Assembly (NCBI GenBank): GCA_024743115.1
Contig: JANSXC010000001.1
Location: 181,628 to 245,627, forward strand
Length of the DNA: 64,000 bases
Direction: 5' to 3'
Source of the DNA: a bacterium
GTDB lineage: Bacteria; Planctomycetota; UBA1135; UBA2386
The position numbers were made by a program, and so were the translations under genes. Within the stretch, counting starts at the first letter, position 1. Each line of letters begins with the position of its first letter. The notes under the pieces were generated by a model that was not told where the DNA came from, ran no database searches, and was given only the letters and a program-made list of their open reading frames with translations. Shown here in pieces: positions 2,690-60,375 of the stretch.

Positions 2690-5600
2690 TCAGCGAATCG
2701 TGACCGTGCGGCGGTTCGAGGTCCGCAAGCCGAGCGGATTGTAGCTCAGGTCGAGGACGGCCCATTGCGATTCGAATGACAAACCGATGGGCAGCGGGCC
2801 GGCCGGCAGGGTCGTCGTCGAGAGCACGGGGCCCGGGCCCGGTAGCGCAACGAACGTCGTCGCGAGCGGTATGACCAGGGCCGCGCACGTCGGGGCACCG
2901 AACGGGTCGAGCGGCAGGAACTGCTGACTGAATCCGAGCATGTGAACGGCCGCGAGCGGGGCCGGGTTGGCGTAAGTGACCGAGAAGTCGATCGTCGGCA
3001 TGTCGACGGTCTCGTCCGTGTTGGCGTCGGCGATGATGTCGGAAGAGTCATCGGCGCACGACCAGGTCCACGCGAAGGTGTCGGTGGCAAAGGCGCCATA
3101 GCTCGACGCACCGTGCGGCTGCGCGCGGTAGCGGGCTGTTTCGAGCCCGCTCCCCGCGACGATCGGCGGGCGCATCGTGTCGTCGAGTTCGAGCACGAGG
3201 AAGAAGTCGGCGCCGCTGGTGTGCGTGTAGTTGAAGTTCGCGATCCACCAGTCGAGGCCGTCGGCATCCAGGCTGTGGGTTTGTGTGAGGGCGCCGCCGG
3301 GAAGTTCGTTGCCCGTCGGACCGGTGACGGCATGAAGCGTCACGCGCGGTGGGGTTGCGGTACCGCTCTTGAACGGGGCCATGTAGAAGCAGAGCTGGCT
3401 CGAACTCCACCCGAGCGAGTTGTTGGGGACGTAGATGGCGTACTTGGTGTTCGCCGGCGCGGTGCTGCGGTCCAGCTTGCGGGGGCGCGGATTCAACGGC
3501 GGACAGTTACCGCTGCAGCCGGCGCCCGAGGTGTCGTGGCTGTTCCACGACGCGTCCACCGTTACGCCGTCGAGGCGCAGACCGAATGGTTGGGTGGTCG
3601 ACTTGCGCACGCCGATGTAGACACCGCCGTAGGCATCGTAGTGCGGCCACTCCATGTCGTCGGCGAATGGCGAGCCCAATCGGATGTTGAGGCTCTCCGG
3701 TGCAACCCCGAGACCGAGGAAGTACCACTGCGAATTGCTGAACTCCGTGGACCAGAGCACGACGTGGTCGGTGCCGCCGGCTTCGTTGTCGACGAGTGAC
3801 AGTCGGCCGACCGGCGTTGATGTCGAGCTGGCGCGCGTTACCTCGAACGTCCACGCGACGCCGGTGTCCCCGTTCTTGTCGGGTCCGGCGACTTCCCGCC
3901 ACGGATCCGGGAACTCGTATTCCGAGTCGGTCGTACCGCAGACGCCCATCGACCAGGCGCACCGTTCGCCCGGGGCCAGGCCCGAGGGGATGTCGAGCCA
4001 CACCCAGCCGTTGAGCTTGAAGTTGTCGGCGGCCGCGGTCTCGAAGTAGTAGCTGCGACCGCTGCCGGGACTCGGCGCGTCGAAGAAGACGTGCCCGCCG
4101 CCGTCCGGAGACGCCGGGACCGGTGGCGATGCCTGGTTCACCGGCGGGGCCTGGCAGCCGCGCCAGAAGGACACTCCGCCCGTGCCGGGCAGGCCGTAGC
4201 TCTCGGCGATGTCGGACTTGTTGTTCGGCAAGTGATTCGTGGCCCCGGGGGTCGCCGTCGCGATCCGCCACTCGAAGCCGTTGTTCGATACCGGTCCGGT
4301 GCCGAAGTCGCTGATGAAGCCATCGTCCTGGCGGGTCCAGGAGGTCGCGACGCCCGGATGCCCGATGTGTGCACCGAACAGCGGGTTGCCCTGGTAGGAA
4401 GCTGCCGGCAAGGCGCCGTCGGCCGCTTCGTAGGCGAGTCGGTCGATGACCATTCCGCCCTGGTCCCTGAGCTCGATGCTCGCAGCGCCCGTCGGTAACG
4501 GTGTGGAGAGCTGGTGGGGGCCGGCGGCGTCGAACACGAAGTAGCCGCCGGGCGCGATGCCTCCCGAGCTGACCGTCGCGAAGACGATAGGGACCGATTG
4601 GTTCGGCGTGACCCCGACGATCTGCCAGCCAGCCAGGCTGATCGAGTTGCTGGTGCGGTTGAACAGCTCGATGAAGCGATCGCTCGCAGGTGCGTCGTAG
4701 ACGAGCTCGTTGAACACGACATCGCCCGACATGCCGATGGCGCTGACCGCCGCAGGCTGCAGCACGGTGCTCGGTGGCGTCACAGTCGTGTGAATCGTCA
4801 GTCTGATGTCGTGAACCCCGGCACCGAAGGTGTGCGTCGGGTTTTGGAGCTGACTGTCGGTCGTACCGTCGTTGTCGAAATCCCATTCCCAGCCGGTGAT
4901 GGACGTGCCCGTCACGCTGGACGTGTCGGTGAACGAGACGGTGAGGGGTGCCGTGCCCGCGGCCGGGTTGGCCACGAAGCTGGCCTGGGCATTTGCGCTC
5001 ACGACCAGACCCGGTTGGATCAAGGTCGATGGTGGCGAAATGCCGTTGCTGACCGTGAGTCGGACGTCGTAGGTGCCGGGGCCGTACGTGTGACTCGGAT
5101 TCGCCTGATTGCTGTCGACGATGCCGTCGTTCTCGAAGTCCCACTCCCAAAGCGTGATGGGCGCGCCGATCGTGATCGACTGGTCGACGAAGTTGACCGT
5201 CAGTGGCGCCGCGCCGGTCGTGGGGGCACCACTGAAGTTTGCTTGCAGGAACGCGGCCGCGATGAAGTTCGGCTGGACGATCGTGGATGGTGCCGTCACA
5301 CCGTTGCTGACGGTGAGCGCGACGTCGTAGCTGCCCTGGGCGAAGGTGTGGCTCGGGTTCTGCAGCGTACTGTCGATGATGCCGTCGTTCTCGAAGTCCC
5401 ATTGCCAGCTCGTGATCGGCAAGCCCGTGGCCGTCGACGTGTCCGTGAAGTTGACGACCAACGGAGCGTTGCCGGCGGTGGGGCTGGCCGTGAAACCGGC
5501 TTGCAGCGTTGCGGCGATCTGGTTGATCGCCAGGGTGAACGAGCCCGTTTGGCCCGACGCGCCACCGACTCGCACGTAGACGACTTGCAGCGCCGAGAGC

Positions 5601-6493: not shown

Positions 6494-6587
6494 GGACAGG
6501 TGACGGTGGAGGAGGTGGTTCACACTCTCGAATGGCCGCTCGGCGATGGATTCGGACAAAGTGATCGAGGTTTTCTTCTAGGACCGC

Positions 6588-7355: not shown

Positions 7356-7369
7356 CTTACAGCAAGCCC

Positions 7370-8662
7370 TTACAGGCACGAGTATTCGATCACCGTCTTG
7401 CCACCCGCGCTCAGGATGATGCAGTTCGGGTCGAGCGGTTCGACGCTGATCTCGTTGGTGACGAAGTCGGTCTTCACGACGAACTCGCCGGGGTACTTGT
7501 CGTTCAACTGGTTCTGGATCTGCGCCGCGTGGAAGCTCAGCGCGAGAACCCGATCGAGGCCGCCGGCCGGCATGACCGTCACCGCCTTCATGAAGAAGTC
7601 GTAGTGCTTGAAGAGGTCGTCGCACTGCATGTTGAAGTGGATGTCCGTGAGGAACGTCCAGCCCTGGCGGTAGAAGGGAACCGGCGCCAGGGGGCAGAGC
7701 GGCGTGGCCGGGAACGTGCCGACGACCACGGGGATGTCCGTAGCGCCCACCCCGTAGGTCACGTAGTGACGTTGTCCGCTCACCGGGGGCACCGTCAGCT
7801 GCACCTGCGTCATGACGCGATTGTCGAGGCGGTCGGTGCCGGTCCAGGCCCAGCTTTCCCCCGGGGCACTCAGCGCGACGGCGCTTCCACCGATCGGCTG
7901 GTTCTGGGCACCGTCGCCACGGAAGACGCCGAGGGTGGCCGGCTGGCCGAAGTTGTGCGGCTGTGGCATCGAGCCGAGCCGGGCCACGACCGTCTGGCCG
8001 TTCGGCGTCTGCTGAACCGCCTGCGCGATCAGCACGGCGGTGTCCCCGTCGGGCCACATGAGCCGCCAGCAGGTGTTGGCCGGGTCAGGGTCGACGTTGC
8101 GTGCGGTGAACGAGACCGTTCCGCCGACCGCGACGGTCGTGCTGCTCGCCCCCGTGACGACCATCGGCGTGTGTTGGCCGATCGTGCACTTCGCGCCATT
8201 GGTCACCGTCGCACCTAGCTGGTTCGCGGGTGGGTCGATCACGAAGAACTGGGCATGGAACGGCAGGCCGATCAGCGCCGTGTTGTTGGCGAGCGGCAGG
8301 CCGAAGGAGCCGGCTCCGGCCGCCGAGGTCTGCAGCAGGCCGAGTGCGAGTTCGGCCGAGTTGCGCCAGATGCAGCCCGGCGCGCCGAACGGCGCGAGGG
8401 GCAGCGGCAGCGGGCCGGCCGGTGAGGTGGTGTCGGACAGCCCGGCGCGGAGCAGTGCGATCGTCGAGCTGGGCGCGTTGGCCAGGTCCATCCAGAACCT
8501 CTGCCCGATGGTGGGCACCCCGCTCGACGACAGGGTCGGCGTTCCGTTGGAGCCCGGGCAACCGGCGCCGACGGTCGAGAACCGCTGCGATTGCGCGGCC
8601 GCGGCGGACAGCAGTGAGAAAGCAGTCAGAAGAGCAAAGGAGGTCGTGCGAATGTGGAACAT
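7370..8662 (-). CDS. Secreted protein with N-terminal shared module
   Basis: A 430-residue exported protein. ATG 8662 gives MFHIRTTSFALLTAFSLL, a typical signal peptide ending at AAAQS; a TTG two codons upstream is possible. Residues about 25-135 are the shared module (VGAGCPGSNGTP, PFGAPGCIW, GLPFHAQFFVIDP), here placed directly after the signal peptide rather than at the C-terminus. The next segment, from PMVVTGASSTTVAVGG, reads like an immunoglobulin-like IPT/TIG strand set. The C-terminal 200 residues are unrecognised and contain several cysteines, ending VIEYSCL. No catalytic motif was found. The gene is followed by a GC hairpin. Confidence 0.8.
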   Translation of the reverse strand: MFHIRTTSFALLTAFSLLSAAAAQSQRFSTVGAGCPGSNGTPTLSSSGVPTIGQRFWMDLANAPSSTIALLRAGLSDTTSPAGPLPLPLAPFGAPGCIWRNSAELALGLLQTSAAGAGSFGLPLANNTALIGLPFHAQFFVIDPPANQLGATVTNGAKCTIGQHTPMVVTGASSTTVAVGGTVSFTARNVDPDPANTCWRLMWPDGDTAVLIAQAVQQTPNGQTVVARLGSMPQPHNFGQPATLGVFRGDGAQNQPIGGSAVALSAPGESWAWTGTDRLDNRVMTQVQLTVPPVSGQRHYVTYGVGATDIPVVVGTFPATPLCPLAPVPFYRQGWTFLTDIHFNMQCDDLFKHYDFFMKAVTVMPAGGLDRVLALSFHAAQIQNQLNDKYPGEFVVKTDFVTNEISVEPLDPNCIILSAGGKTVIEYSCL

Positions 8663-8845
8663 CGTCAAGGAGTCTCGCCAGCTCCTTCGGCCACGACGTG
8701 TGCCCGATTCCCGGCTGGCGAGTTCTCCATGACGACCCGTCGCCGGAACCGGACACGGTTTCCTTCGGCGATTGCCGCGGGCTGCAATCAGCCTCCTGGC
8801 CGTGGCGCCCGCGGTTCGCTGTCGGCGCCCGGTTCAGCGGTCAGC

Positions 8846-11800
8846 TCACGGCCGCACGAGCATGCGGTAGACCTCGCTGAAGTTGCCGACCGCGAAGTTG
8901 CCGGTCGGGAACGTGAGGCACTGAAAGCACAGGACCGTGCCCGGGATCCACGGCAGGTTGGGCACGTTGATGTCCATCGCAGTGCCAACCGGGACCGCGG
9001 CGTGGATCACCGCGACGCCGCCGCTCGGACCCGAGAACAGGATGCCGTAGGGCTGGAGCAGCGAGGCGCCGCCGGCCGGGTCGAGGCCGACAGTGAGCAG
9101 TGACGAGCCTGCCTGGCCCTGCATCGTCATCGATACCGTCTCGCCGGGGCGGACATCGAGGTTCGTGACACCCATCGTCCAGTTGCCGAACTCGTACGCG
9201 CCCATGTCGGGGTCTGCCGGTCCGGACATGCTGTCGGAGAGTAGCCGCGAGTTCTCGAGGTGGTCCTCGACGGTCATGATACCGAACGTCGGATCGGCGG
9301 CGCCGATGCATGGCGAGCCGGCCTGTAGCGTCAGGTCGCCGTTGCTGGCGTCGACGAACAGTGGGTCGGCATTGAGGTTGCCGTTCATGCCGGCGAAGTC
9401 CCCGTTGCTGTTGAGCACGTTGCCGGACGTCAGGCCCGTGTAGTTGGAGCCATTGTCCCAGCTGCAGCTGTTGATGACGTTGCCGGTCCAGCTCGCAGCC
9501 GCGCGGATGCCGTCGCTGCTGCTGCCGTTGACGGTTGCGTGGATGATGTCGAATGAGCCGTTTGCAAGGTCGATGCCGCGACCACAGTCCCAGGCCACGA
9601 GGTTGGTCGGGGAGAGTCCGAGGTTCTGGAGCTGGAAACCATCGTCCTGGGCGTTGTCGACGCGGACCGAGCGCAGCACGGTGTTGGCGTTTTCGACCGT
9701 AAGGCCGCTGAAGTTGCTGCGGCCGGCATATCGCAGCCGCACGTTCCGGAGCACGGCGCCGCCGCTGGCGACCGGTACGCGCAGCCAGAACCAGGAGCCC
9801 GCGGACCCAGTGGTCGGACCATTGCCGGTGCTGTCGCCGCCGAACGAATCGTCTTCGGCGTCCGTGATCACGACGGGTTCGTAGGCGGTGCCTTCGAACT
9901 GCGCGGTGCTGTTGACGATGATCTGCAGTGCGCCGATCAACTTGATGATGCAACCCTGCTCGACCCGGAGGTTGCCCGGGGCGTTCACCTGGATGTTGGC
10001 GGAGAAGAGGAACGCACCACCGAGCATCGATTGGGTGCCGATCCGCAGGTCGCTGACGATGGTCGCGGCCGTGATCCGCATGCAGTTCGAGTCGTTTCCC
10101 GACGCGGTGTTGTACTCGAAACCCGGAATCGCAGTGGCCGGCACGTTGTCGACGGCCTGGCCCTGGTTGTCGTTGAAGGCGCAAGTCGTCACCGTCGGAT
10201 GCGAATTGCCGTTCAGGGACAGGCCCCTTTCCTGGCAGTCACTCACCGTGCAGTTCGTCATCGTGATGTCGGCCGTGTAGAGGTCGACGCCCGAGAAGTT
10301 GCTGCGACCGGCGAAGCGCACCTCGGTGTAGGTGAGCGTGCTCGCATCCGAGGTGTCGTTGCAGCGGAGGTAGAACCACTTGCCGACGGCGCCGGTGCTT
10401 GCCCCGTCGTTGTTGCTGTCGCCGCCGATCGTGTCGTCGGCGTCGTCGGTGAAGACGACGGGCTCGACCGCGGTGCCCTGGCAGTCGAGCGTGCCGTCGA
10501 TGAGGACCTGCCGCGCGCCCACCATCTTGAGATTGACGCCCGCCTGGACGGTCAGCGTCACCCCGAGGGGAACGGTCAGGTTGGTCGCCATCAGGAACGC
10601 GCCGTCGATCATCGACTGCGTGCCGATCGTCAGGTTGCCAGTGACCGCTCCCGTAGTGATGCGAATCGCGTCGAGAGTGTTGCCGGTCGCCGTGTTGTTG
10701 GTGATGCTCGGCAGCGCATTGATGGCGACGTTGTCGATTGCGTTGCCGTTGCAGTCGCTGATGGTCGTGTTCGTGATCGTCGGGAATGATCCGTTGTTCA
10801 GGCTGATGCCGCGTTCCTGGCAGTCGCGCACGGTGCAGTTCGCCATTGCGATGTCGGCGGTGTAGAGGTCGACGGCGGAGAAGTCGCTGCGGCCTGCGAA
10901 GCGGATCTCGGTGTAATCGAGCGTGCTCGCATCCGAGGTGCCGTTGCAGCGGAGGTAGAACCACTTGCCGGGATTGCCGACGCTCGGGCCGTTGTTGTCG
11001 CTGTCACCGCCGATGCTGTCGTCGCCCGAATCGGTGAAGACCACCGGCGCGACCGCGGTGCCCTGGCAATCGAGCGTGCCGTCGATGAGGACCTGCTGGG
11101 CGCCGGTCATCTTGAGGTTCACGCCGGCCTGCAGGGTCAACGTCACGCCCGTAGGCACGGTGACGTTCGCCGCCATGAGGAAGGCGCCGTCGAGCATCGA
11201 TTGCGTCCCGATCGTCAGGTTGCCGGTGACACCGCCGACGGTGACGATCACCGCGTCGAGCGCATTGCCCGAGGTCGTGTTGTTCGTGAGGCCGGGGATC
11301 GCCCGGATCGCCACGGTGTCGATGGCGTTGCTGCCGCAGTTGGTCACCGTCGAATCACTGATGGTCGGGAACGAACCGCCGTTCAGGTTGATCCCGTCAG
11401 CCTGGCAGTCGCGCACCGTGCAGTTCGTCATCGCGACGTCGGCGGTGTAGAGGTCGACGGCGGAAAAGTTGCTGCGGCCCGCGAACCGCACTTCGGTGTA
11501 GTCGAACGTGCTGGCGTCCGAGCCGTCATTGCAGCGCAGGTAGAACCATGCGCCCGGCGAGCCGGTGCTCGGACCGTTCGCATTCGTGTCCCCACCGGCG
11601 CTGTCATCCTGGATGTCGGTCAGGATCACCGGGTTGGCGGCCGTACCGTTGCTGATCAGCGTGCCGCTGACGTTGAGTTGATTGGCGCCGGTGAACTTGA
11701 TGATCACGCCGGCGTCCAGGGTCAGCGTCTGGCCGGCATCGACCGTCAGGTTGGTCGCGTGGTAGACACCCGCGGTCAGGGTGCCGGACTGTGAGCCGGA

Positions 11801-12093: not shown

Positions 12094-14616
12094 ATGTGCA
12101 ATGTCCTCCCGCGGCTCTGCCGTTTCGTTCTCCTGTTCCTGACCGTGCTCCCGTGCACGATCGTGGCCGATCTCGCTGGGCAGAGTCGGGTGGCATGGGC
12201 CCTGGTCGCTCCGGCGGGTCAGAGCAGTCCGTTCACGCCGTTCTCCGGCTATCAGTACTCGCCGTCCGGCGCGAGCATCACCGTGACCCGGAGTTCTGTG
12301 AGCCATCGCTTCACGGTCACGATCCCCGATGTCTCCGCGGCTGCGGGCGGCTGTGTGCATGCGACCCCGTTCGGCGGCAACCACACTGCGGTCGTCGAGG
12401 GTTGGAGCAGCGGCAACGGGAACGTGTCCATCACGATTGCGCTGTTCGATGTCGACGGCAATCCGGCGCCCGATACGGCGTTTACGGTGCACTGGCGCGA
12501 CGACGGTCCGGTATCGCGGCGGGACGGCTACGTCTGGGCTCACTTGCCGACAGCCTCGAGCTACACGGCGTCGTCGACCTACGCCTGGAACGGCAACCGC
12601 GGCGCGCCGACGATCCAACGGAACGGCACTGGCGCCTATGAGGTCGTATTTCCCGGCCTCGGCCCGTCCGGCGCAAAGAAGGGGCAGGTGCAGGTCTCGC
12701 CCTATGGCTTCACTCCGACGCGCGCGAAGGTGTCGTCCTGGGCAAACTATGGTGGCGACCTGCACGTCTTCGTGCGCACCGTCGACATGACCGGGGGGCC
12801 TGTCGATGCGCGCTTCACCTGTTCGTACAACGAGTCCGCGGGCCCGATCCATCCGGCGTTCGGCTCGGGTGCACATGTGTGGGCCAACGAACCGACGACC
12901 GATTACTACGCGCCACACGCGTCGTACACCGACGGCAATGGCCACGAAGGGCCGGCTGACAACGAGACGGTGACCCGGCTCGGCACGGGCACGTATCGCG
13001 TCAGTCTGCCGAGCATGGCGCCATCGTCGAGTTCGACTGTGCAGGTCACGGCACAGGGTACGAGTGCGGAGTTCGCCGCGATCCAGTCTTGGCTCGGTGA
13101 CGGCAAGGGCGGAACGAACGTGACCGTTCGCACCTACGACGCGAGTGGCGTGCCGGCCGACGCCCGGTTCTGTCTGAAGTACCTGACCAGCCGGCCTGGT
13201 GCCCGCCCCGAGATGGCGTGGGCCTGGGTCAACACCGTCGGCCTCGCGCCCGGTCAGTCCTACACGCCGTCGCTGAGCTATCAGCACACGAACTCGGGTC
13301 AGCCCATCACGGTGACGCGGCATCCGACGTCGACCAACGTCTACGAGATCGCACTGCCGGGGATCGCGGGCGTGCACGGTGAGAACGTGCAGATCACGCC
13401 GCACAACGGTGATCATCTGATGTTCGTGGGCCACATCATCGCCGGGCTCGTGCCGAAGATGTACGTGCACATGTACGATCGGCTCGGCAACCCGACTTCG
13501 GGCAAGGCGTTCACCGTGCTCTATATGTCGCCGACGATCGACCAGCGTCGCGGCTTCGCCTATGTGCGCGCGGTCGGGCCGCATCCGACCCGACTCGATG
13601 AGGATCACACCTGGAACGGGAATCGCGGCGCACCGTCGCTCGATGTGCTCGGGGTCGGCAGCTATCGCATCACGTTCCCCGGTCTCGCGCCGAGCGGCCC
13701 GGAGAAGGGGACGGCGCTCGCGACCGCGGCGTTCGCACCCGTGCGGCGTGCGAAGATCGTTACGTGGAATGCCAATGGCAACGACCTCGAGGTCTATGTG
13801 GCCATGACAGACCCGGGTGGCGTGCCCACGGATGGCAACGTCTACGTCTACTACCAGGAAACGGCGACGGCGATGCTGCCGCAGCACGGGTCGGGCGCGC
13901 ACGTGTGGGGCAACCATCCGACGTTCGTCACCTACACGCCGCACCCCGAGTTCACGCACAGCAACGGGGACGTCGGACCGGCCGGGAGCGAGACGATCGA
14001 TCGGGTCGGGACCGGGCGCTATCGCGTCAACCTGCCGAACATGAAACCGAGCGGGAGCTCGATTGCAGTTGCTACGGGCTTCGGGGCGGATGGCACCTAC
14101 GCCACGATCGACTACTGGACTGCCGGCGCGTCGACGGGGACCCGGGTCTATGTCGAGACCTGGGATCTGGCCGGCAACCCGACGGATGCGCGGTTCACGC
14201 TGCTCTATCAGACCACCGATCCGATCACGACGGCGGCGACGAACACGAGTCTCGGCACCGGCTGCCACGGCGTCGCGTTGACCGCCCCGACGAGACCGCT
14301 GCTCGGCCGGGACTGGAACCTCGCCCTGCGAAGCGTGCCGGGGGGAGCGTTGCTCGGATTCGTGCAGGTCGACCTCGTCGGCACGACCTATCCGCTCGGT
14401 GTCAATGCGCCCGGCTGCACGGCCTACACCGGCGGTGCCGTTTCCCAGCTCGTGCTGTTGCCAGCGGCCAACCCGGCCTACTCGCTGGCGATTCCGAACG
14501 ATCCGGGGTTCGTCGGACTGAGTGTCTACGCCCAAGGTGGCGCGCTCGTGCCGAATCTCAATCCGTACTCGGTCGCGGTGTCGAACGGTATGCGGGGTGA
14601 CGTTGGCGACTTCTGA
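12094..14616 (+). CDS. Secreted protein of tandem ~120-residue repeats plus shared module
   Basis: An 840-residue protein beginning MCNVLPRLCRFVLLFL, with a signal peptide ending near LAGQS. The body consists of about six repeats of 100-120 residues. Each opens with an alanine/tryptophan strand (GAHVWANEPTTDYYAP), then an NGxxGPAxxETVxRxGTGxY strand pair, then LPxMxPSxSS and a segment ending in DARF(T/C). I do not recognise this repeat as a named family; it looks all-beta. The last 125 residues (14230-14613) are the shared module (NAPGCTAYTGGAVSQ, GFVGLSVYAQGG). A 919-codon frame also runs on the other strand, but it lacks any signal peptide or module and is Arg-rich, so the plus strand is the coding one. 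The gene ends 15 bp from its convergent neighbour. Confidence 0.8.
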   Translation: MCNVLPRLCRFVLLFLTVLPCTIVADLAGQSRVAWALVAPAGQSSPFTPFSGYQYSPSGASITVTRSSVSHRFTVTIPDVSAAAGGCVHATPFGGNHTAVVEGWSSGNGNVSITIALFDVDGNPAPDTAFTVHWRDDGPVSRRDGYVWAHLPTASSYTASSTYAWNGNRGAPTIQRNGTGAYEVVFPGLGPSGAKKGQVQVSPYGFTPTRAKVSSWANYGGDLHVFVRTVDMTGGPVDARFTCSYNESAGPIHPAFGSGAHVWANEPTTDYYAPHASYTDGNGHEGPADNETVTRLGTGTYRVSLPSMAPSSSSTVQVTAQGTSAEFAAIQSWLGDGKGGTNVTVRTYDASGVPADARFCLKYLTSRPGARPEMAWAWVNTVGLAPGQSYTPSLSYQHTNSGQPITVTRHPTSTNVYEIALPGIAGVHGENVQITPHNGDHLMFVGHIIAGLVPKMYVHMYDRLGNPTSGKAFTVLYMSPTIDQRRGFAYVRAVGPHPTRLDEDHTWNGNRGAPSLDVLGVGSYRITFPGLAPSGPEKGTALATAAFAPVRRAKIVTWNANGNDLEVYVAMTDPGGVPTDGNVYVYYQETATAMLPQHGSGAHVWGNHPTFVTYTPHPEFTHSNGDVGPAGSETIDRVGTGRYRVNLPNMKPSGSSIAVATGFGADGTYATIDYWTAGASTGTRVYVETWDLAGNPTDARFTLLYQTTDPITTAATNTSLGTGCHGVALTAPTRPLLGRDWNLALRSVPGGALLGFVQVDLVGTTYPLGVNAPGCTAYTGGAVSQLVLLPAANPAYSLAIPNDPGFVGLSVYAQGGALVPNLNPYSVAVSNGMRGDVGDF

Positions 14617-26852: not shown

Positions 26853-27463
26853 CCTACCGCAGCAACGTGACCGAGAGAGTCTACGTTCGAAGCCTGGGCT
26901 ACCGCGCGCATCGCACGCGGCAAGAGACGGTCTACGCACCGTCGCCCGGTGAGGTGACTCTCAGCGGCGCAGTTGCCTTTGACGCGGACGCGAACCGTTT
27001 TCTGCTGGCCTACGGCGTCAATGGCAGCTTCCCCGGTGGGCTGACCCAGGTCGACGTGTTTGAGCACCCGGCCCAGATCCCGCCGGTCCTCGGCGGTCTC
27101 GGCTGCAGCTCGGCGACGATTGCATGGGGCGGCAGTACGCTGATCGGCGATGACGACTGTGGAGTCGAGCTGTCGGGGCTGCCTGCTGGCGCATTGACGA
27201 CCGTGATGGTGGCGACCCAGCCGTTCGCGAGCCTGCTGACCGGCACGCCGATGGTGCATCCGGGCTGCTGGCTGCTGGTGCCGAACACCGGTGCCAATTC
27301 GATCGGCACGCTGCCGATCGCATTCGGTCCGAACGTTCGCTACCAAGTCGATCTGCCAGAGTGGCTCGGCCCGATGACCCTGCACTTCCAGGGTGTGCAC
27401 TTCGATGCGGCCGCGACCGAGGTGTTCACGACGCAGCGCCTGTCGGTCAGCTTCGTCAAGTAG
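26849..27463 (+). CDS. C-terminal part of the frameshifted surface protein, with shared module
   Basis: The ATG at 26849 overlaps the TGA of the preceding frame, but the protein has no signal peptide and its homology continues upstream of that ATG (YSETQSHCV from about 26822). It therefore looks like the continuation of the 25152 gene rather than a separate gene. The last 125 residues (27075-27460) are the shared module (GGLGCSSATIAWGG, VHPGCWLLVPNTGAN, GVHFDAAATEVFTTQ). The reading is GC-rich in third positions throughout. Either a real frameshift mutation or a one-base sequence error separates the two halves. A perfect hairpin follows 21 bp after the stop. Confidence 0.7.
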   Translation: MTYRSNVTERVYVRSLGYRAHRTRQETVYAPSPGEVTLSGAVAFDADANRFLLAYGVNGSFPGGLTQVDVFEHPAQIPPVLGGLGCSSATIAWGGSTLIGDDDCGVELSGLPAGALTTVMVATQPFASLLTGTPMVHPGCWLLVPNTGANSIGTLPIAFGPNVRYQVDLPEWLGPMTLHFQGVHFDAAATEVFTTQRLSVSFVK

Positions 27464-27515: not shown

Positions 27516-29981
27516 TCAGAACCGGACCCGTTCGTGGATCGGGGCCGAGAGCCTGGGGGCGAAACCCGTGAACAGTGCCTGGGCGTAGAGGTCGATGCCG
27601 GCCAGCGCCGGGTCGGCGGGAATCGGCACGACGTAATGCGGTTGGCTCGAGTGCACGGTCACGGTGGCCCCGCCGCTGGGGTCGACGAACGCGGTTCCCA
27701 GGCTCCCGAACGACACCGGCGTCGCGAGTTTGGTCGTCGAGACGATGACGAAGGAGAAGGACGCGCTGGTCTCGGAGAGGACCTCGAGCGACAGATTGCC
27801 ACCAAGTCGTGGCACGTAGCGCGCCCGGAAGTGGCGGCGGTTGTTCGTCAGGACATAGCGGCTGTGCGAGCCGACGATGTCCAGGTCGCCGTCGTCATCG
27901 ATGTCCTGGAAGCGCGTGCTGATCGAGTCAAACGGCGAGTCGATGAGGTTGCGCGGTTCCTGGACCTCCTGCGGGATCGAAGTGAGCTGACCCGAACCGT
28001 CGTTGCGCAGCAGTTCCGCTTCGAACAACGGGCTGAGCGGGGACTCCCAGAGTCGCATCACATCGACGTCGCCATCGGCGTCGAAGTCCACGAGGGCCGC
28101 CCACTGCATCATGCTCGTCGACGTGACGGTTGATCCGACCGAGAACATGCCCTGCCCGTCGTTGAGGAACAGGATCTCACGCACCGCCGGTGGGCCGGAG
28201 TGCGGGCTGCCGAAGTAGGGGGTTACGAGATCAGTGTCGCCATCGCCATCGACATCCCCGACGAGCACCTCGCTCGGCGAGCGACCCAGGGTCGGCGACT
28301 GCGGCGGAATGGCGCTCGGCGAGAGCGTCATCTTGCCCAGGCCGTTGTTGAGGTAGAGTTGCGCGTCCGTGCCCTGGACGATGAGGTCGAGGTCGCCGTC
28401 GTTGTCCGCGTCCAGAACCTCGCCGCTGCGAGCCGACGAACTCTGCAGCGCGGACACGATCCACGTCGACGGCTCGGTGAAGCCGCCCTGCCCGTCGTTC
28501 TGCATGAACTTCCAGGCCCGCGAGCCCGATTGCGTGGCGATGAGATCGAGGTCACCGTCCCCGTCGAGATCGACGGTGCGGTGCCAGCCGATGCCACTTG
28601 CGATCGGCGTTCCGCTCGCCACGGTAAAGTTGCCCGAGCCGTCGTTGAACGCGACGTGCAGCGGCAGGTTGATGATACCGCTCACGAGCAGGTCCTTGTC
28701 GCCGTCGTTGTCCAGGTCGGCGCTCGAGTAGATGGCCGGCGCGGCCAGGGTTTGCAGGTTGGGTGTTTGCTGGAATCCGCCGAAGCCGTCGCCGCGCCTC
28801 AGGTAGTAGCGGTTGCCAATACGTGTCAGGCTGTCGGTGACGCCGTCGCCGTTGAAGTCGTCGAACAGCAGGTCGTTCGTGCGGCCCGGGCTCATATCGA
28901 CGAACTCACCGTTCGGCTGTCCGAGCAGCACCGAGATGTCGTCCTCGACGGCGAGCACGTCGAGCCAGCCGTCGCCGTCGACATCGGTCAACTCGACGTG
29001 GTCGACCGATCGAGCGATTCGCGGGATCCGAAACTGTGGGGCGAACGGAATCGTGCCGCCATCATTGCGGAACCAGAGCGGCCAGCGGCCGCCGTAGTCC
29101 ACCCAGGCGTCGATGTCGCCGTCGCCGTCGATGTCGCCGCCGCGAACGTGCGTGGCGCCGTTGCTGAAGCCGAAGTAGGGGATCGCGGCGAGCACGAAGG
29201 ACGTGCCCTGGCGGAGCAGCACCTCGCCGTCCTTGACGACGAGATCCTCGTGGCCATCGCTGTTGACGTCGAATCGTCCGATGATCCGCTCGGAGCCAGG
29301 GGGGAAGAAGTTCGTTTGCGTCGCGTTGAAGACGCCGCCGCCCTGGTTGGGCCACAGGACCAGCTGGTTCGTCCGCGCGTCGAGGAACGCCAGATCCATG
29401 TCGCCATCGAGGTCGGCATCGAGCGACCACATGTCGCTGATGGCCTGGAGGCTGCCCTGCATGCGCGCTGCGGTGACATCCGTGAAGTTGCCGCTGCCGT
29501 CATTGGCAATTTGCCACGTACCGCCGAACGGAATGGCGAACAGGATGTCGAGGTCGCCGTCGCCGTCGAAGTCCGCGACCGTGCTGCTGCCGATCTGCGA
29601 GAAGCTGATGTTCGGAAAGGTCGTCGAGGCCTGGAACGGCTGCGGCAGGCGATTGAGAAGCACCGTGGGGTCGTTCGAGACGCCGCCGAACGCGTCCAGG
29701 CGACCGTCCCCGTCGAAGTCACCGGTCGCGAGGATCTCGTACGGGCCCAGCTGCGGGCCGTACGCGGCGAAGTCGCCGAGGTAGTTCAGTATGAGCTGGC
29801 CGCGGCCGAACACGTCGACATCGCCGTCGCCATCGAAGTCGGCCAGGTAGCCGCGGTACAGCCGTTCGAGCGAACGATCGACGTGGTCTTTGCCCGCGCG
29901 CTCGAACAGGTTCTGCGCGCAGAGGATCGAGGACAGTACGAGAGCGCTCGTGAGAGCGGCGGTAGTGGGAAGACGTTTCAC
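27516..29981 (-). CDS. Secreted FG-GAP/VCBS repeat protein
   Basis: About 821 residues. The GTG at 29981 gives VKRLPTTAALTSALVLSSIL followed by CAQ, a plausible signal peptide; frames upstream of it lack one. The body is made of many FG-GAP/VCBS-type repeats, each with a calcium-binding-like DxDxDGDxD loop (DFDGDGDVDVFG, DLDGDGDLDLI, DVDGDGWLDVLAVED), which form beta-propellers in integrin-like and adhesin proteins. At least fifteen such loops are visible. The last 95 residues (about 27810-27519) are a version of the shared module (VPIPADPALAGIDLYAQAL). The likely role is adhesion or ligand binding at the cell surface. The stop is adjacent to the hairpin at 27485. Confidence 0.87.
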   Translation of the reverse strand: MKRLPTTAALTSALVLSSILCAQNLFERAGKDHVDRSLERLYRGYLADFDGDGDVDVFGRGQLILNYLGDFAAYGPQLGPYEILATGDFDGDGRLDAFGGVSNDPTVLLNRLPQPFQASTTFPNISFSQIGSSTVADFDGDGDLDILFAIPFGGTWQIANDGSGNFTDVTAARMQGSLQAISDMWSLDADLDGDMDLAFLDARTNQLVLWPNQGGGVFNATQTNFFPPGSERIIGRFDVNSDGHEDLVVKDGEVLLRQGTSFVLAAIPYFGFSNGATHVRGGDIDGDGDIDAWVDYGGRWPLWFRNDGGTIPFAPQFRIPRIARSVDHVELTDVDGDGWLDVLAVEDDISVLLGQPNGEFVDMSPGRTNDLLFDDFNGDGVTDSLTRIGNRYYLRRGDGFGGFQQTPNLQTLAAPAIYSSADLDNDGDKDLLVSGIINLPLHVAFNDGSGNFTVASGTPIASGIGWHRTVDLDGDGDLDLIATQSGSRAWKFMQNDGQGGFTEPSTWIVSALQSSSARSGEVLDADNDGDLDLIVQGTDAQLYLNNGLGKMTLSPSAIPPQSPTLGRSPSEVLVGDVDGDGDTDLVTPYFGSPHSGPPAVREILFLNDGQGMFSVGSTVTSTSMMQWAALVDFDADGDVDVMRLWESPLSPLFEAELLRNDGSGQLTSIPQEVQEPRNLIDSPFDSISTRFQDIDDDGDLDIVGSHSRYVLTNNRRHFRARYVPRLGGNLSLEVLSETSASFSFVIVSTTKLATPVSFGSLGTAFVDPSGGATVTVHSSQPHYVVPIPADPALAGIDLYAQALFTGFAPRLSAPIHERVRF

Positions 29982-50002: not shown

Positions 50003-50029
50003 CGTGTACTCTTTGCTCGCGAACCGAAC

Positions 50030-53495: not shown

Positions 53496-55793
53496 CTAGT
53501 TTCCGAGGGTGATGCGAATGGCGTTCGACGCGTGCAGTTGCGGTGACCATGAGCACCCGCCTGCCGCATTCGAGATCACGATCCACTGCGTATCGATTTC
53601 AAAGCCGAAAAAGGCGGGGCTGCAGGGCAACGGCAGCGGCCAGCGCGCGGAACCGCCGCTCAACGGGATGAAAGCCTGCACCAGCGGGAAGATGGCACGA
53701 CAGGTGCTGCCGGCACAGCCCGCGTTCAGGGGCTGGCGGGTCACGTCGGCCCGCCAGAACGCGGCCATGGCGTTGGTGTCGGCGCCCGACAACGTGATCC
53801 CGAATCCCTGGTTGCCGATCGACGCGGGGCCGTCCGTTCCGGTGGCGCCGCCGGCGCCGCACCCGGGGGCGCCGGGGATCTGAGTGACCGTGCCACCAGC
53901 GAATGCTTCCCAGCGTCGGCCGTCGATCTGCGCTTCATCGGCGGACCACACAACCATCGCCGATCCGTTCGCTCCAGCGGCTACCGCATTGAACGTGTTG
54001 TCGGTGGCGCCAGAGGCAGTCTGATCCCTGGGGCCACAGGTATGCCAGGGGCTGCCCGTCAGCTTTAGGCTCCAGAGTGCGTGGGGACCACTGACAGGAC
54101 CTTCCCCGTAGGTCACGAGCCAAAGCGGAGATCCCCAGGAGGTCGGGTAGAGCATCGTGACGGATGGGTTCGCGTCGTCGCTCGTAGAGTTCCGTACGAT
54201 TGACTTACGCCCGATGCTGACCGGATTCGTCGAGCTGACGGGGTCGCTGTCGAAGATGTCCACTGCCCAGATGTCGCCCGAGCTCGATTGAATCTGCTCG
54301 TAGGCAATCAAGAATCGATCGCCGTCGCCATCGACTTCGGGGTTGGCGACGTTGTCGCTATTGGTGCTCGAGATCAACACGGTGTCCGTCGCGGGCGAAC
54401 CATCTCGCCGGATGATTCGCGCGCCCAGATCGTCGAAACCATTTGCGTCTTCCCAGGCGACGCACCGATTCCCGCCCGCCGAGCGGGCGCTCTTCGAGAT
54501 CGAAGGATCCCGCAGGTCAGAGCCGGACGCGATGGTCTGCTCGACGAAGGGCTGCACGCTGTATCCGCCGCCAACGGTCAGTCCGACGGGCTTGCCGTAG
54601 ATGCCAGAGCCGACTTTGCGATACACCACGTAGACGTCCTCCGACGTGAGCGTCAACTCGCCGCTCACGTCGGGTTCGACGTTGTCGTCGAACAAAAAGC
54701 CGCCCGTCACCAGCGTCTTGGCATCCGGGGAGCCGCTACCGGACGGGATCGAGCGGCCTTGGATCTCCCAGCCAGAAACCAGATCTTCCTGCCAGGCGAC
54801 GAAGAACTTGCGGCGCAGCGCGTTGTAGCCGACCTGGGGTTTGCGTTCGACGTTGCTTGTATAAGCGACCTGCAGGACGCTGCCCGAGGTCGAGCCGGAG
54901 GGCAAGACTCGAATCGCGCGCACGTCGCGATCGCTGGACGAGTAGACGTTCTCCCAGACGACCAGGTAGACCTGGAAGAAGCCGCCGTAGGCGATGTCGG
55001 GCTGGATGTCGTCCCCCGACAGGGTCCCGATAGGGAATACGCTGCCGATGGGCGGATCGAGCTCGAGCGGATAGGACGCGTTGCTTACGAACGAGTCGCT
55101 GAGCACGAGTTCGAGGTGGCGGCCGTCCCAGTTCATCGACCCTTTCGCGCGCCGACCGCCGGCGTCGACGCCGACGACCGCTCCGATGTCGACGCCGCCG
55201 AACTGGCTGTCGAGGCGCAGGCCGTCGAGGCCTTGCCCGATCGAGGCTTCGAGCTCGGTGTCGAGCTGCAGGCGCACGATCAGGTCGCCGGAGCCGGCGG
55301 GCTGCTGGGCGAACACGAAGCTCTGCTTCAGGTGGTCGGCAGTTGCGTCGTAGCGCTCGACTATGCCAGCGCCGCGCTCGAAGCGGACGGTGTTGCCCGA
55401 TGCCTGCGCGACTGCGCGCTGTTCAGCGGGCGGCGCAGTGAATACGCGGTCCTCGCCACGGCGGATCGATTCGAGTGTGAAGTTCACCGGCAGGTTGTGC
55501 GGGGCCTGCGCACCGAGCGCGGGCGTGAACTCGACGGTGCCGCGACCGAAGATGGCCTTGTAGTCGGGGCCCGCGGCCCAAGTGACACCGTCGGTGTGGC
55601 CAGCGCCGAAGGCCTGTGAGATCGCTGATTGCGGTGCGACCGCTGGTGCCGGGGCTGTGGTGTCTGTGTCGCGGGAGGCCGACTGAGCGACCAGGGAGAC
55701 AGTGAACGCCACAATGGCGACGGTGGGCGTCAGGCCACGGAACGGCTGTGCGCCGCTTCGACTGGGGTGGGAGGAACCCTGCGAGAGGTTCAT
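53496..55793 (-). CDS. Secreted surface protein with N-terminal domain paralogous to the 25152 gene
   Basis: About 765 residues from ATG 55793 (MNLSQGSSHPSRSGAQPFRG), preceded by AAGGAG 7 nt upstream, with a signal peptide ending at VSLVAQS. Residues about 65-250 (VTWAAGPDYKAIFGRGTVEF through ASYPLELDPP) correspond to the N-terminal domain of the frameshifted gene at 25152-27463. A long beta-rich part follows with repeats recalling beta-propellers (VYLVVWENVYSSSDRDVRAI, KFFVAWQEDLVSG). The last 130 residues (53890-53499) are the shared module (GAPGCGAGGATGTDGPA, GCAGSTCRAIFPLVQAFIPL). No enzyme motif. So two of the nine module proteins also share an N-terminal domain. Confidence 0.85.
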   Translation of the reverse strand: MNLSQGSSHPSRSGAQPFRGLTPTVAIVAFTVSLVAQSASRDTDTTAPAPAVAPQSAISQAFGAGHTDGVTWAAGPDYKAIFGRGTVEFTPALGAQAPHNLPVNFTLESIRRGEDRVFTAPPAEQRAVAQASGNTVRFERGAGIVERYDATADHLKQSFVFAQQPAGSGDLIVRLQLDTELEASIGQGLDGLRLDSQFGGVDIGAVVGVDAGGRRAKGSMNWDGRHLELVLSDSFVSNASYPLELDPPIGSVFPIGTLSGDDIQPDIAYGGFFQVYLVVWENVYSSSDRDVRAIRVLPSGSTSGSVLQVAYTSNVERKPQVGYNALRRKFFVAWQEDLVSGWEIQGRSIPSGSGSPDAKTLVTGGFLFDDNVEPDVSGELTLTSEDVYVVYRKVGSGIYGKPVGLTVGGGYSVQPFVEQTIASGSDLRDPSISKSARSAGGNRCVAWEDANGFDDLGARIIRRDGSPATDTVLISSTNSDNVANPEVDGDGDRFLIAYEQIQSSSGDIWAVDIFDSDPVSSTNPVSIGRKSIVRNSTSDDANPSVTMLYPTSWGSPLWLVTYGEGPVSGPHALWSLKLTGSPWHTCGPRDQTASGATDNTFNAVAAGANGSAMVVWSADEAQIDGRRWEAFAGGTVTQIPGAPGCGAGGATGTDGPASIGNQGFGITLSGADTNAMAAFWRADVTRQPLNAGCAGSTCRAIFPLVQAFIPLSGGSARWPLPLPCSPAFFGFEIDTQWIVISNAAGGCSWSPQLHASNAIRITLGN

Positions 55794-55800
55794 TGGATTA

Positions 55801-55806
55801 CTCCTT
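55801..55806 (-). promoter_or_regulatory. Shine-Dalgarno site for the 55793 start
   Basis: Reads AAGGAG on the minus strand, 7 nt upstream of ATG 55793. It is one of the best ribosome binding sites in the window and fixes that start against the longer frame reaching 55928. Confidence 0.8.
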
Positions 55807-56160
55807 CGTAGGTTGAACGGGTAGCGAATCGCCGGCGACGATTCATCACGCGCCGGACTCTGCGGGGCGCGCCGGGACATGCGCCGTCCGGAGTCGGGGC
55901 CCGTCAACAAATCCAAGAAAAGCAACATCCCGTTGTTTCACCAGGGGCTGGAGTCATGGCACCGAGACTCGCCGCCAAGGCGAACATGCGCTTGGGCTGC
56001 CTGGGTCCGACGCCCAGAGTCCGGAAGCTATGCCGCGAATCCGTGGGGCCTCCATGACGTGCGAGTTTGACCCGCACATTCGTGAGCATTTCTGACTGTC
56101 CGCGGTTCCGGTTGGCGCATGGGCCGGCGAATCAACCGGAACCCAACCCCCCAGGAACCC
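55807..56160. other. Divergent control region of two secreted-protein genes
   Basis: Lies between starts at 55793 (minus) and 56161 (plus). No ORF of note. An AGGA element just before ATG 56161 fits a ribosome binding site. Promoters for both genes are expected here but no clear box could be assigned. Confidence 0.4.
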
Positions 56161-59100
56161 ATGCGCACCTCACTTCCCCGCCTCTGTGGCTTCGCCGCTT
56201 TCGCCATGACGGCTTCGCTCGCGGCCCAGGCCCAAGGCCCGATCTTCTCCACTTTCGGCGCCGGCTGTTCCGGAACAATGCCGCCTGCGGAGTTCACGCT
56301 GACGGGTTCGCCGGTGGCTGGTACGAACTTGCAGTTCGAACTGAATAACTTGCCGGACAACGCCGCGCTCTTGATCTTCGGCTTCAGCAACACGACGTCG
56401 ATCTTCGGCCCGCTGCCCGGTCCGATCGGCAACACGCCCGGCTGCATGCTGCACATCAGCCCGGATATCACGCGGTTCTACCTCACGAGTGGCAATGTGC
56501 TCAGCTACTCGAAGTCGTTGCCGAGTGGAACCGGGGTCCTCGGCACGCGGATTTTCTTTCAGGCGCTCGTCTTCGACAGCGGGCACACTCCGGATGGGTT
56601 CGTCATGTCGGACGCGTTGGAGACGGAGGTCGGTACGACGGGCTGGCCGGCCGCGCACACGGTGGCGAACATGCAGCCCGTCGCGCCGGGCAGCTTCACG
56701 ATGGGCTCGAACACGGCGTTCTATGCCTACGAGCGCCCGGCCCACGCCGTGAACCTCACCGACCCGTACTGGATCGGCCGCTACGAGGTCACGCAGGCCG
56801 AATACGAAGCCGTGATGGGCAACAACCCGTCGTTCCACCAGGGTGGATCGTACGGCAATACAGACGACCGCCCGGTCGAGAACGTGTCATGGACCGACGC
56901 GATGCAGTACTGCGCCGAGCTGACCGATCGCGAGCGGGCTGCGGGTCGTCTGCCGGCGGGCTATGTGTACCGGCTGCCGACCGAGGCGGAGTGGGAATAC
57001 GCATGCCGATCGGGCTCCGGGACCGCGTGGTACTTCGGCAACCAGGGCAGCCTGAACTGTGGGCTCGTAAACACCTCCAACTGCGTCGGCCAGACCCGCG
57101 AGGCCGGCACCTATCCGGCGAACGCGTGGAATCTGCACGAGATGCACGGCAACGTCGGCGAGTGGTGCCTCGATCGCTGGGATAGCAGCGCCAACTACCC
57201 GAGCACCGCGGTCACGGATCCGTACGTCACCGTGGGGGCGGACCGCGTCTACCGTGGCGGCAGCTTCAACATCTCGCTACCGCTGAGCAAGTCGTACACC
57301 CGCCTTCGTCAGCCGCCGACGACGACTCGTTCAGACATCGGCTTCCGTATCGCGCTAGCGCCGGCCAAGGTGCTCGAGACGATGGTGCCGTTGCCGAACG
57401 GCGCGTTCTCCATTGGCTCGAACACGGCCTTCTACGTCGAAGAACGTCCGGCCCACACCGTGAACCTTACGGACACCTACTGGATCGGTCGCTACGAGGT
57501 CACGCAGGCCGAATACCTGGCGCTCATGGGCAACAACCCGTCGTTCCACCAGAGCGGCAACACCAGTAACCGCCCGGTCGAGAACGTGTCGTGGCACGAC
57601 GCGATGGCGTACTGCGCGGCGCTGACGGCACAGGAAGCCGCGGCGGGTCGCTTGCCGGATGGCTACGAGTATCGGCTCCCGACCGAAGCGGAGTGGGAGA
57701 TCGCGTGTCGTTCGGGCACGGGGACCGCGTGGTTCTTCGGGAACCAGGCCAGTGTGAACTGCGGCCTCGTGAACCACAGCAACTGCGTGCAGGGGACGCG
57801 CGACGTCGGGTACTACCCGCCGAACGCCTGGGGGATCCACGAGATGCACGGCAACGTGCGCGAGTGGTGCCTCGACAGCTGGGACGGTAGCGCCAACTAC
57901 CCGAGCGGCGCGATCACGGACCCGTTCGTCGTCGAGGGCACCGACCGCGTCAATCGCGGCGGTGGCTGGCTCTCCCAGCTGCCGTTCACCAAGTCGCACA
58001 CGCGCTCACGCCAGGACCCGTCCACCACGCGTTCCGACACCGGCTTCCGCGTTGCTCTCGCGCCGATCGCGTTGGGTGTTGCCAACATGACCCGTATCCA
58101 GCCCGGCACGTTCCAGATGGGCTCTACCCAGGGCGATCCTGACGAGCAGCCGGTGCACTCCGTGACGATCTCGGAACCGTTCTGGATGGGGCAGTTCGAG
58201 GTCACGCAGGCGGAATACCAGGCCGTCATGGGCACCAACCCATCGTCAGTGATCGGCGCTGATCTGCCCGTCGACAGCATCAACTGGAACCTCGCGATGG
58301 GCTACTGCGCGGCGGTCAACGCGCGCGAAGCGCGGGCAGGCCGGTTGCCCGATGGCTACGAGTACTGCCTGCCGACCGAGGCCGAATGGGAGTATTGCTG
58401 CCGCGCGGGCACCACGACCGAGTGGATCACCGGCACGAGCCTCAATGCCACCCAGGCCAATATCAGTGGTGGGGCCGGCCCGGGTCAGCCCGTCGGCTCC
58501 TACGCGCCGAACCCGTGGGGACTCTACGACATGCACGGCAACGTCGAAGAGATCGTGTTGGATGGCTACGACGGCAACAACTACCCCAGTGGCCCGGTCA
58601 CGGATCCGTACGTTCTCGACGGAATCGGCATGATCGTTCGGGGTGGGAGCTACGGCGCCAACTCGTACAGCGCGCGATCAGCAGAACGCAACGCACGCAG
58701 CTTCTGGAGCACGTTCTTCGCCACGGGCTTTCGCATCGTGCTCGCGCCCAAGCAGGGCGTCGACGGCATGGTGCGAGTTCAGAGCGGAGTGTTCGACATG
58801 GGGTCTGCCGCGGTAGGTGGCGCCGCTGTTCCGGTCCACGGTGTGTCGATCCTTCAACCGTTTTGGATTGGCCAGCATGAGGTCACGCAGGCCGACTACG
58901 AGGCCTTGATGGGCACGAATCCTTCGTTCCATCAAGGGGCCTCGTTCCCCGGCGATGCCAAGCGCCCCGTCGAGCAGGTGAACTGGCACGGGGCGCTGGC
59001 GTATTGCGAAGCGCTGACGGCGCAAGAGGCTGCGGCCGGGCGTCTACCGGACGGCTACGTCTACCGTCTGCCCACGGAAGCGGAATGGGAGTACGGTTGC

Positions 59101-60375
59101 CGCGCTGGCACGACAACGGAATGGAGCACAGGCGTCGCCCTGAACAGCAGCCAGGCCAACTTCGGAAACAACACCGGCGAGACGACTACGGTAGGTAGTT
59201 ACCCGGCGAACCTCTGGGGCCTCTTCGACATGCACGGCAACGTGTTCGAGTGGTGTTTCGACAGCTGGGACCTCAGTCACAACTATCCAGCGGGGCCGGT
59301 CTCGAATCCCTATGTCACCATCGGCGCCAACCGGATCTACCGGGGTGGCAGTTACTACGCCAACCCGGACCTTTGTCGCTCCGCGAGCCGGCAGAGTATC
59401 CATCCCGCGACCAGCGACTACGGCCTGGGATTCCGAGTGGTGCTCGCCCCGCCCCTCTTCAACGACGGTGGGGCGCAGGCGGGTACCGTTGATGCGACCG
59501 GCCAGCCAGGCCACGGCATGGGCTTCACGAGCGAGAAGTCTGGGACCGGTCGCTACCGCGTCACACTCGCGCTGGCGTTCTCTGAACGGCCAGTGGTGAT
59601 CGCGACGATCCTGGGCAACGAGGACAACGCGATCTCGGTGGATGTGCTCGGTGGCAACGTGTTCGAGGTCTATTGCTACGACGTGTCACCGACCACGAAT
59701 CTGAACGCTCAGGACTCGAGCTTCTCGTTTGTCGCGGTTCCGCCTGGCGCTGAGGACCCCCCTTTCGTTGCGGCGGAGAGTGGCGAGGTCGCTGCCTCAG
59801 GAACGAGCGCCGCGAGCAACTTCCAAAGCTTGAGAACCTCAGAGGGCCGCTACCGGTTGAATCAGTTCTCCTCCAGCACTCACGGAATGGTCACTCTGGC
59901 GACGGTGTCGGGCAACGAAGACAACACGATCGCGACGATCCCTGACCCGGTCTTCGCCTCCGAGTACGAGTTCCAGAGCTACGACGTGCATCCGGATATC
60001 GACGAGTATGAACAGGATGCCGGCTTCATGTTCGTTCACGACACCCACTCCACCCGGTTCTGGGGGGTGCCGAAGGTGTCGGGCGTGGTCGATACCAGCG
60101 GTGCGATCATCTCGCCCCCGTTCCCGACCGGGCCGTTCGGCCAACAGTTCACGTGCCAACACGTCGGGACCGGGCACTACCGCATTACTCTCGATCCGGT
60201 TCTCTCGGGCACGCCGGTGATGGTCGCCTCGATCTACAGTGATCAGGACAACGTCATCTCGGTGGAGCCGATCAGCGCGACGGTATTCGATGTCTATTCG
60301 CGCGACGTGGATCCGGACAACAACTTCGTGTCAGAGGACTGCAGGTTCGGATTCATCGCGGTCAGCCTGGAGTAG
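56161..60375 (+). CDS. Secreted protein with shared module, four tandem FGE-like domains and three C-terminal repeats
   Basis: 1404 residues from ATG 56161 (MRTSLPRLCGFAAFAMTASL), signal peptide ending near AAQAQ. Residues about 25-160 are the shared module (FSTFGAGCSGTMPPAEF, NTPGCMLHI). Four FGE-sulfatase (SUMF1-type) domains follow, beginning near residues 170, 404, 639 and 866; each has MGSN or MGS, EVTQAEY, RLPTEAEWEYxCR, MHGNVxEW and RGGS. The two cysteines that bind copper and do catalysis in true FGE, expected just after RGGS, are missing in domains 1-3; domain 4 has only the second (RGGSYYANPDLCRSASR). So these are probably binding domains. Residues 1108-1404 are three 90-residue beta repeats (GTGRYRVTLALAFSERPVV). 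Secreted scaffold or lectin-like role is inferred. Confidence 0.88.
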   Translation: MRTSLPRLCGFAAFAMTASLAAQAQGPIFSTFGAGCSGTMPPAEFTLTGSPVAGTNLQFELNNLPDNAALLIFGFSNTTSIFGPLPGPIGNTPGCMLHISPDITRFYLTSGNVLSYSKSLPSGTGVLGTRIFFQALVFDSGHTPDGFVMSDALETEVGTTGWPAAHTVANMQPVAPGSFTMGSNTAFYAYERPAHAVNLTDPYWIGRYEVTQAEYEAVMGNNPSFHQGGSYGNTDDRPVENVSWTDAMQYCAELTDRERAAGRLPAGYVYRLPTEAEWEYACRSGSGTAWYFGNQGSLNCGLVNTSNCVGQTREAGTYPANAWNLHEMHGNVGEWCLDRWDSSANYPSTAVTDPYVTVGADRVYRGGSFNISLPLSKSYTRLRQPPTTTRSDIGFRIALAPAKVLETMVPLPNGAFSIGSNTAFYVEERPAHTVNLTDTYWIGRYEVTQAEYLALMGNNPSFHQSGNTSNRPVENVSWHDAMAYCAALTAQEAAAGRLPDGYEYRLPTEAEWEIACRSGTGTAWFFGNQASVNCGLVNHSNCVQGTRDVGYYPPNAWGIHEMHGNVREWCLDSWDGSANYPSGAITDPFVVEGTDRVNRGGGWLSQLPFTKSHTRSRQDPSTTRSDTGFRVALAPIALGVANMTRIQPGTFQMGSTQGDPDEQPVHSVTISEPFWMGQFEVTQAEYQAVMGTNPSSVIGADLPVDSINWNLAMGYCAAVNAREARAGRLPDGYEYCLPTEAEWEYCCRAGTTTEWITGTSLNATQANISGGAGPGQPVGSYAPNPWGLYDMHGNVEEIVLDGYDGNNYPSGPVTDPYVLDGIGMIVRGGSYGANSYSARSAERNARSFWSTFFATGFRIVLAPKQGVDGMVRVQSGVFDMGSAAVGGAAVPVHGVSILQPFWIGQHEVTQADYEALMGTNPSFHQGASFPGDAKRPVEQVNWHGALAYCEALTAQEAAAGRLPDGYVYRLPTEAEWEYGCRAGTTTEWSTGVALNSSQANFGNNTGETTTVGSYPANLWGLFDMHGNVFEWCFDSWDLSHNYPAGPVSNPYVTIGANRIYRGGSYYANPDLCRSASRQSIHPATSDYGLGFRVVLAPPLFNDGGAQAGTVDATGQPGHGMGFTSEKSGTGRYRVTLALAFSERPVVIATILGNEDNAISVDVLGGNVFEVYCYDVSPTTNLNAQDSSFSFVAVPPGAEDPPFVAAESGEVAASGTSAASNFQSLRTSEGRYRLNQFSSSTHGMVTLATVSGNEDNTIATIPDPVFASEYEFQSYDVHPDIDEYEQDAGFMFVHDTHSTRFWGVPKVSGVVDTSGAIISPPFPTGPFGQQFTCQHVGTGHYRITLDPVLSGTPVMVASIYSDQDNVISVEPISATVFDVYSRDVDPDNNFVSEDCRFGFIAVSLE

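Follow-up and report, generated by a model that had tools for sequence, protein, structure and literature searches.

What does it mean that PKD, propeller, FG-GAP and FGE-repeat proteins, all encoded in one stretch of a bacterial genome, carry the same all-beta module at one of their ends? The question is raised by 64,000 nucleotides (“the window”, the whole stretch of DNA analysed) of a member of the Planctomycetota (UBA1135; UBA2386), assembly GCA_024743115.1, contig JANSXC010000001.1, positions 181,628 to 245,627, in which a first-pass annotation had described one recurring segment in nine exported proteins, seven times at the C-terminus and twice directly after the signal peptide. Judged by profile comparison, the module is one homologous family, unnamed in Pfam and NCBIfam, to which eight of the nine segments belong. 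The answer we favour, with confidence evenly balanced, is that it is a portable terminal domain, predicted to be immunoglobulin-like (Ig-like), that labels exported proteins as cargo for the cell surface via a receptor or translocon in the envelope. The segments in the window are as follows, with the independent E-value (iE) given by a profile from which the window had been left out:

8174..8590, minus strand: N-terminal module, immediately behind the signal peptide in gene 7370-8668 (iE 2.4e-36)
56236..56637, plus strand: N-terminal module, immediately behind the signal peptide in the FGE-repeat protein 56119-60375 (iE 3.3e-28)
30178..30600, minus strand: C-terminal module, running right up to the stop codon, in the BNR/Vps10 propeller protein 30175-32985 (iE 1.7e-31; AlphaFold2 mean predicted local distance difference test, pLDDT, 96.3)
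14233..14610, plus strand: C-terminal module of gene 11899-14616, entered as 12094 in the first-pass annotation (iE 5.2e-26)
2693..3088, minus strand: C-terminal module of the PKD/LTD protein 2690-6559 (iE 1.7e-19)
53499..53897, minus strand: C-terminal module of gene 53496-55928 (iE 2.7e-14)
27080..27460, plus strand: C-terminal module at the end of gene 25053-27463 (iE 4.5e-11)
27540..27863, minus strand: C-terminal module of the FG-GAP protein 27516-30071, with both conserved cysteines missing (iE 5.6e-08)
8849..9175, minus strand: C-terminal tail of the beta-helix protein 8846-12196, membership unconfirmed (no profile match)

The leave-window-out profile was built from 157 copies of the same genome, and its best decoy, a reversed open reading frame (ORF), reached an iE of only 0.41; the test is not fully independent, because the seed used to collect the 157 training copies contained the nine window segments. 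Pairwise phmmer comparison likewise linked most of the nine to one another. In the relative P0002, the N-terminal module occupies residues 23-161 of 428; the FGE-repeat protein contains four FGE-sulfatase stretches. The ninth segment, the tail of the 8846 protein, is the one part of the proposed set that is unconfirmed: besides giving no profile match, it resembles the other eight weakly in phmmer (nine sequences compared; lowest E 0.0036 and 0.0092) and, folded alone, has a pLDDT of 41, that is, no fold. The confirmed copies are therefore six C-terminal and two after a signal peptide, the seventh C-terminal case being the unconfirmed one. The gene given earlier as 25152-27463 does end in a module but is not a single frame: it consists of two overlapping ORFs in different frames, with the frame broken at about 26815-26850 through an error of assembly or through gene decay. 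Its N-terminal half resembles gene 53496-55928 by eye.

The family extends far beyond the window. A profile of the nine rows gave at least 150 matches in the whole genome, the best 150 of 457 candidates having been scored; 113 stretches around matches outside the window were then taken, and the profile was iterated over 551 kb, window included. This yielded 168 domains at E < 0.01, of which 3 with E > 1e-4 were dropped, leaving at least 165 copies (E < 1e-4) at 164 distinct places, with further places lying outside the 113 stretches analysed. The module is nearly always terminal: 152 of the 165 copies end within 3 residues of a stop codon, as do 148 of the 155 with E < 1e-10, and some of the remaining weaker copies are fragments or alternative frames (e.g., L039, L112, and L113). 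Over a length of about 135 residues, identity between copies is low (25-41% to the first of 52 rows), and the motifs described from the nine segments recur throughout the wider family: Cys11 is conserved in 136/152 filled rows and Cys68 in 147/159, the two usually being retained or lost as a pair, while Q108 (160/163) and S/T124 (159/162), the latter within the last 15 residues, are near-invariant.

The proteins that carry the module appear to be mainly exported ones, as had been proposed. A crude, home-made heuristic finds a signal-peptide-like N-terminus in 109 of 146 module proteins versus 13 of 115 internal control starts (118 versus 32 at a looser threshold, 97 versus 9 at a stricter one), so that export by Sec signal peptides is predicted. 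The partner domains were counted with Pfam in 143 of the 157 module ORFs, 14 short, partial or weak-frame ORFs being excluded. Kelch repeats are present in at least 31 of these, followed by PKD (at least 8), subtilase and Vps10/sortilin-like (at least 4 each) and sulfatase, FGE, FG-GAP and RCC1 (at least 2 each); among the families listed, M14 peptidase, trypsin, beta-lactamase-like, MauG, sorbosone dehydrogenase and C-type lectin are single cases. On this census kelch propellers are common, but taken together the partners are unrelated. An anchor of their own, lipid or transmembrane, is not seen in most module proteins: a canonical lipobox is present in 2/146, and a simple hydropathy rule finds a transmembrane-like stretch in the last 40 residues of 3/152 C-terminal modules.

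Terminal position, a great variety of partners and near-invariant Q108 and S/T124 are not expected of unconstrained spread, which makes it very unlikely that the module is a neutral folding cap with no common partner that multiplied as a few genes for secreted proteins were duplicated, even though the very high copy number in one lineage, the low identity between copies and the frequency of kelch propellers would fit such an origin.

The fold was predicted from the module at 30178-30600, for which AlphaFold2 gives, with high confidence, an Ig-like beta sandwich; a disulfide between Cys11 and Cys68 is also predicted. Ten ORFs representing the nine window genes, and 52 modules, were compared with Pfam and NCBIfam, and no family covers the module; HMMER filters remove most matches above E ~0.1 in such scans, and only stray single-member matches were seen, with a best E of 0.014. 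A search of PDB sequences gave chance-level matches only (best E 0.21). Foldseek's sole match at E < 0.001, the GM2 activator, has a TM-score of 0.34 and is unconvincing, and the VIA structure comparison returned generic Ig-like matches. Among the papers listed in literature searches (with bioRxiv and most subscription papers outside the scope), no title or abstract opening describes such a domain. A match to a well-known family, the finding that the first-pass annotation had set against its own proposal, thus did not appear in the family scans, the structural matches being generic, and its remark that the module has no named function stands.

An all-beta sandwich at either end of hydrolases and propellers could also be an extracellular ligand-binding domain, directed for example at the cell's own matrix or at prey or algal polysaccharide, in the manner of the carbohydrate-binding modules of hydrolases and adhesins. 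We consider this unlikely: partners such as the beta-lactamase-like, MauG, sulfatase and RCC1 domains have no obvious common substrate, and the families left unmatched in Pfam and NCBIfam include the binding families.

Outside this genome, the profile search suggested by the first-pass annotation found the module, at a threshold of 1e-5, in 54 of the 294 phylum genomes examined; up to 14 candidates were scored per genome, so that a genome counted as having no match may hide a weak copy. In the window's order, 21 of 22 genomes, this one included, have the module (several with a single weak match), versus 33 of 272 elsewhere in the phylum. A deeper look at 17 genomes gave from 1 to at least 150 copies per genome. 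With part of the candidates scored in the searches of this genome and of the phylum, copy numbers are lower bounds. Other phyla were sampled through protein searches and through 50 genomes reached via homologues of the 30175 protein. Three of these 50 carry the module: a pair titled Planctomycetota, with at least 82 and 47 copies, and one titled “uncultured bacterium”, with 65; it was absent from two further Planctomycetota-titled genomes and from the other 45. All 16 database module proteins with an organism in their name are labelled Planctomycetes or Planctomycetota, which by itself points to a planctomycete source for the window. On a short contig of the Planctomycetota genome CPC3 (L183:227-7700), three consecutive proteins each have a C-terminal module.

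The 30175 propeller protein allows a direct comparison of what occupies the C-terminal position, since it has homologues in many phyla. The region after the propeller was compared in 79 of 80 loci (L261 gave no ORF, and four frames were open). The module occupies this region in two Planctomycetota loci, L182 and L183; the L182 protein continues for 158 residues beyond it. Among the 63 loci with closed tails of at least 40 residues, these two included, 25 have the sorting domain TIGR04183 of the type IX secretion system (T9SS), type A, and 24 its Pfam equivalent PF18962; the same slot holds a GC-type dockerin (NF041540) in L188 and L197 and a choice-of-anchor D domain in L191, and many other tails are unrelated long extensions. 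Twelve homologues are tailless, nine of them Actinomycetota by title (two from one strain) and three acidobacterial by title. Actinomycetota have no outer membrane; Acidobacteria are diderm.

The T9SS itself shows no sign of being present in the phylum. SprA, sought with PF14349 (SprA_N), was found in 0 of 294 phylum genomes, this one included, and in none of the three further module carriers, several of these genomes being incomplete, whereas the same model matched in 31 of 50 genomes used as a positive control; TIGR04189 has no match in the window's own genome. Tails and SprA were counted separately, and together they suggest that the module replaces the sorting domain where the T9SS is missing.

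It is possible on these grounds that the module is a true T9SS-like export signal, its last strands being read by an outer-membrane translocon specific to these Planctomycetota, in which case it would have to be C-terminal. The extreme C-terminal position, the slot shared with T9SS domains, the broad Ig-like fold and the near-invariant S/T within the last 15 residues all fit. The main evidence against a signal that requires a free C-terminus comes from the N-terminal copies. Of 241 copies from this genome, database proteins and relatives, 13 are N-terminal or well inside the protein, and all 13 retain both cysteines, the Gln and the S/T. In a FastTree tree of the 241, they need at least 6 changes (shuffled labels, 11-13) and form six groups, of which two have support values of 95 and 99; by this tree N-terminal copies arose several times. 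One of the 13 (L107) lies behind a lectin-like region, and its gene may be a fusion. Because these copies keep the same conserved residues, it would be the folded module that is recognized and not a free C-terminus. A signal of the T9SS kind is for these reasons, and given the SprA counts, unlikely, though those counts bear on the known translocon and not on another that may exist. Four genomes of one other family, f44 (L170, L175, L179, and L181), have long proteins in common (open frames of 1283-1749 residues) with an N-terminal module, and these form one tree group.

We therefore return to the module as a portable domain for the cell surface. A sorting or anchoring function is indicated only indirectly, by the terminal position, by the slot shared with the T9SS domain in one family and by the scarcity of other anchors. 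A protein with the module would leave the cytoplasm by its Sec signal peptide, the folded module would then be recognized at the envelope by a receptor or translocon, and the docked module would hold or deliver its cargo at the outer surface. A further step, which we propose tentatively and regard as somewhat doubtful, is that these Planctomycetota have an outer-surface sorting pathway of their own, independent of T9SS and exosortase, in which the Ig-like domain is the address label common to all clients, dozens to more than 150 of them per genome, and a receptor or translocon yet to be discovered reads it at either end.

Several observations weigh against a surface label. The slot comparison concerns one protein family with two module-bearing members, and in the third module-bearing genome, L222, a distant BNR homologue has neither the module nor an NCBIfam tail. 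Tail and outer membrane are not strictly matched, because the 12 homologues without a tail include 3 from Acidobacteria and the actinobacterial L211 is long-tailed. Ten copies, two near-terminal ones among them, indicate that the extreme C-terminus is not essential, and 37 of the 146 proteins received no signal-peptide call. In the 30175 protein and ten relatives, an alignment shows an invariant early cysteine after a hydrophobic stretch; the protein might therefore be a lipoprotein whose lipobox is non-canonical, and the module would then be redundant as an anchor there. Finally, the window genes at 36404 and 39871 have signal-peptide starts (by eye) and no module by profile, so that the first-pass claim of a module on most large secreted proteins of the window was somewhat overstated.

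To our knowledge, little is known about protein transfer across or onto the planctomycete outer membrane. With more than 150 proteins of one genome sharing a single domain, a list of clients would be at hand, and the search for matching machinery would become concrete: the receptor would be expected in every module-bearing genome and could be retrieved with one purified domain. For annotators, a module absent from Pfam and NCBIfam would supply a useful family model.

Elsewhere in the window, three tandem paralogues of 1105-1149 residues with very similar C-termini (43234-53347, plus strand) are, by eye, serine/threonine kinase-like with WD40-like repeats at the end. Two adjacent genes (14632-20403, minus strand) combine, also by eye, sigma-factor-like N-termini with long carboxypeptidase-regulatory-like or prenyltransferase-like C-terminal regions.

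How does the module compare with known sorting and anchoring systems? The NCBIfam choice-of-anchor domains (e.g., NF012200) are found on exported proteins and named for their use with various anchors; 0 of 52 module members match any of them. The GC-type dockerin shares the C-terminal slot in L188 and L197, but its model has 67 positions and a different sequence; dockerins have a calcium-binding helical fold. PEP-CTERM is a C-terminal multi-copy sorting tag, the role proposed for the module, with a short tail that contains a transmembrane stretch, such as very few of the modules have. Exosortase (PF09721) occurs in 111 of 294 phylum genomes and is not significantly commoner with the module (23/54 genomes that have the module versus 88/240 that lack it; Fisher p 0.44). 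The other 31 carriers give no exosortase match, so that co-occurrence does not support it as the partner of the module. The window's own genome has one exosortase-like protein (G000:C40:13770-14432, 844-residue frame), and a second C-terminal sorting system may coexist with the module there.

The closest likeness is to the C-terminal domains (CTDs) of the T9SS. The type A CTD (TIGR04183/PF18962, Por_Secre_tail) runs, like most copies of the module, to the last residues of exported proteins with unrelated partners, and it takes the same place after the same propeller in homologous proteins. Cleavage by PorU with attachment to A-LPS, or binding of a shuttle (PorV), are further marks of T9SS sorting domains. 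PMC4804311 describes the RgpB CTD as an Ig-like sandwich, the broad fold predicted for the module, and reports that the last 22 residues of a CTD are enough to export a reporter; CTDs are divided into types A and B, each with different shuttles, in PMC12618676. There are differences as well: the module has about 135 residues versus a model of 72 positions, a conserved cysteine pair, N-terminal copies and host genomes without a SprA match, and none of the T9SS profiles TIGR04183, PF18962, and PF13585 matches any of 52 module members, whereas scans of this type do pick up TIGR04183 and PF18962 in the homologue tails described above. A T9SS CTD entry is absent from the best 50 structure matches listed, which excludes nothing. 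Because of the missing profile match, the lack of a SprA match and the N-terminal copies, we do not place the module among the T9SS CTDs; on this comparison, it is best read as a separate domain that resembles those CTDs in role.

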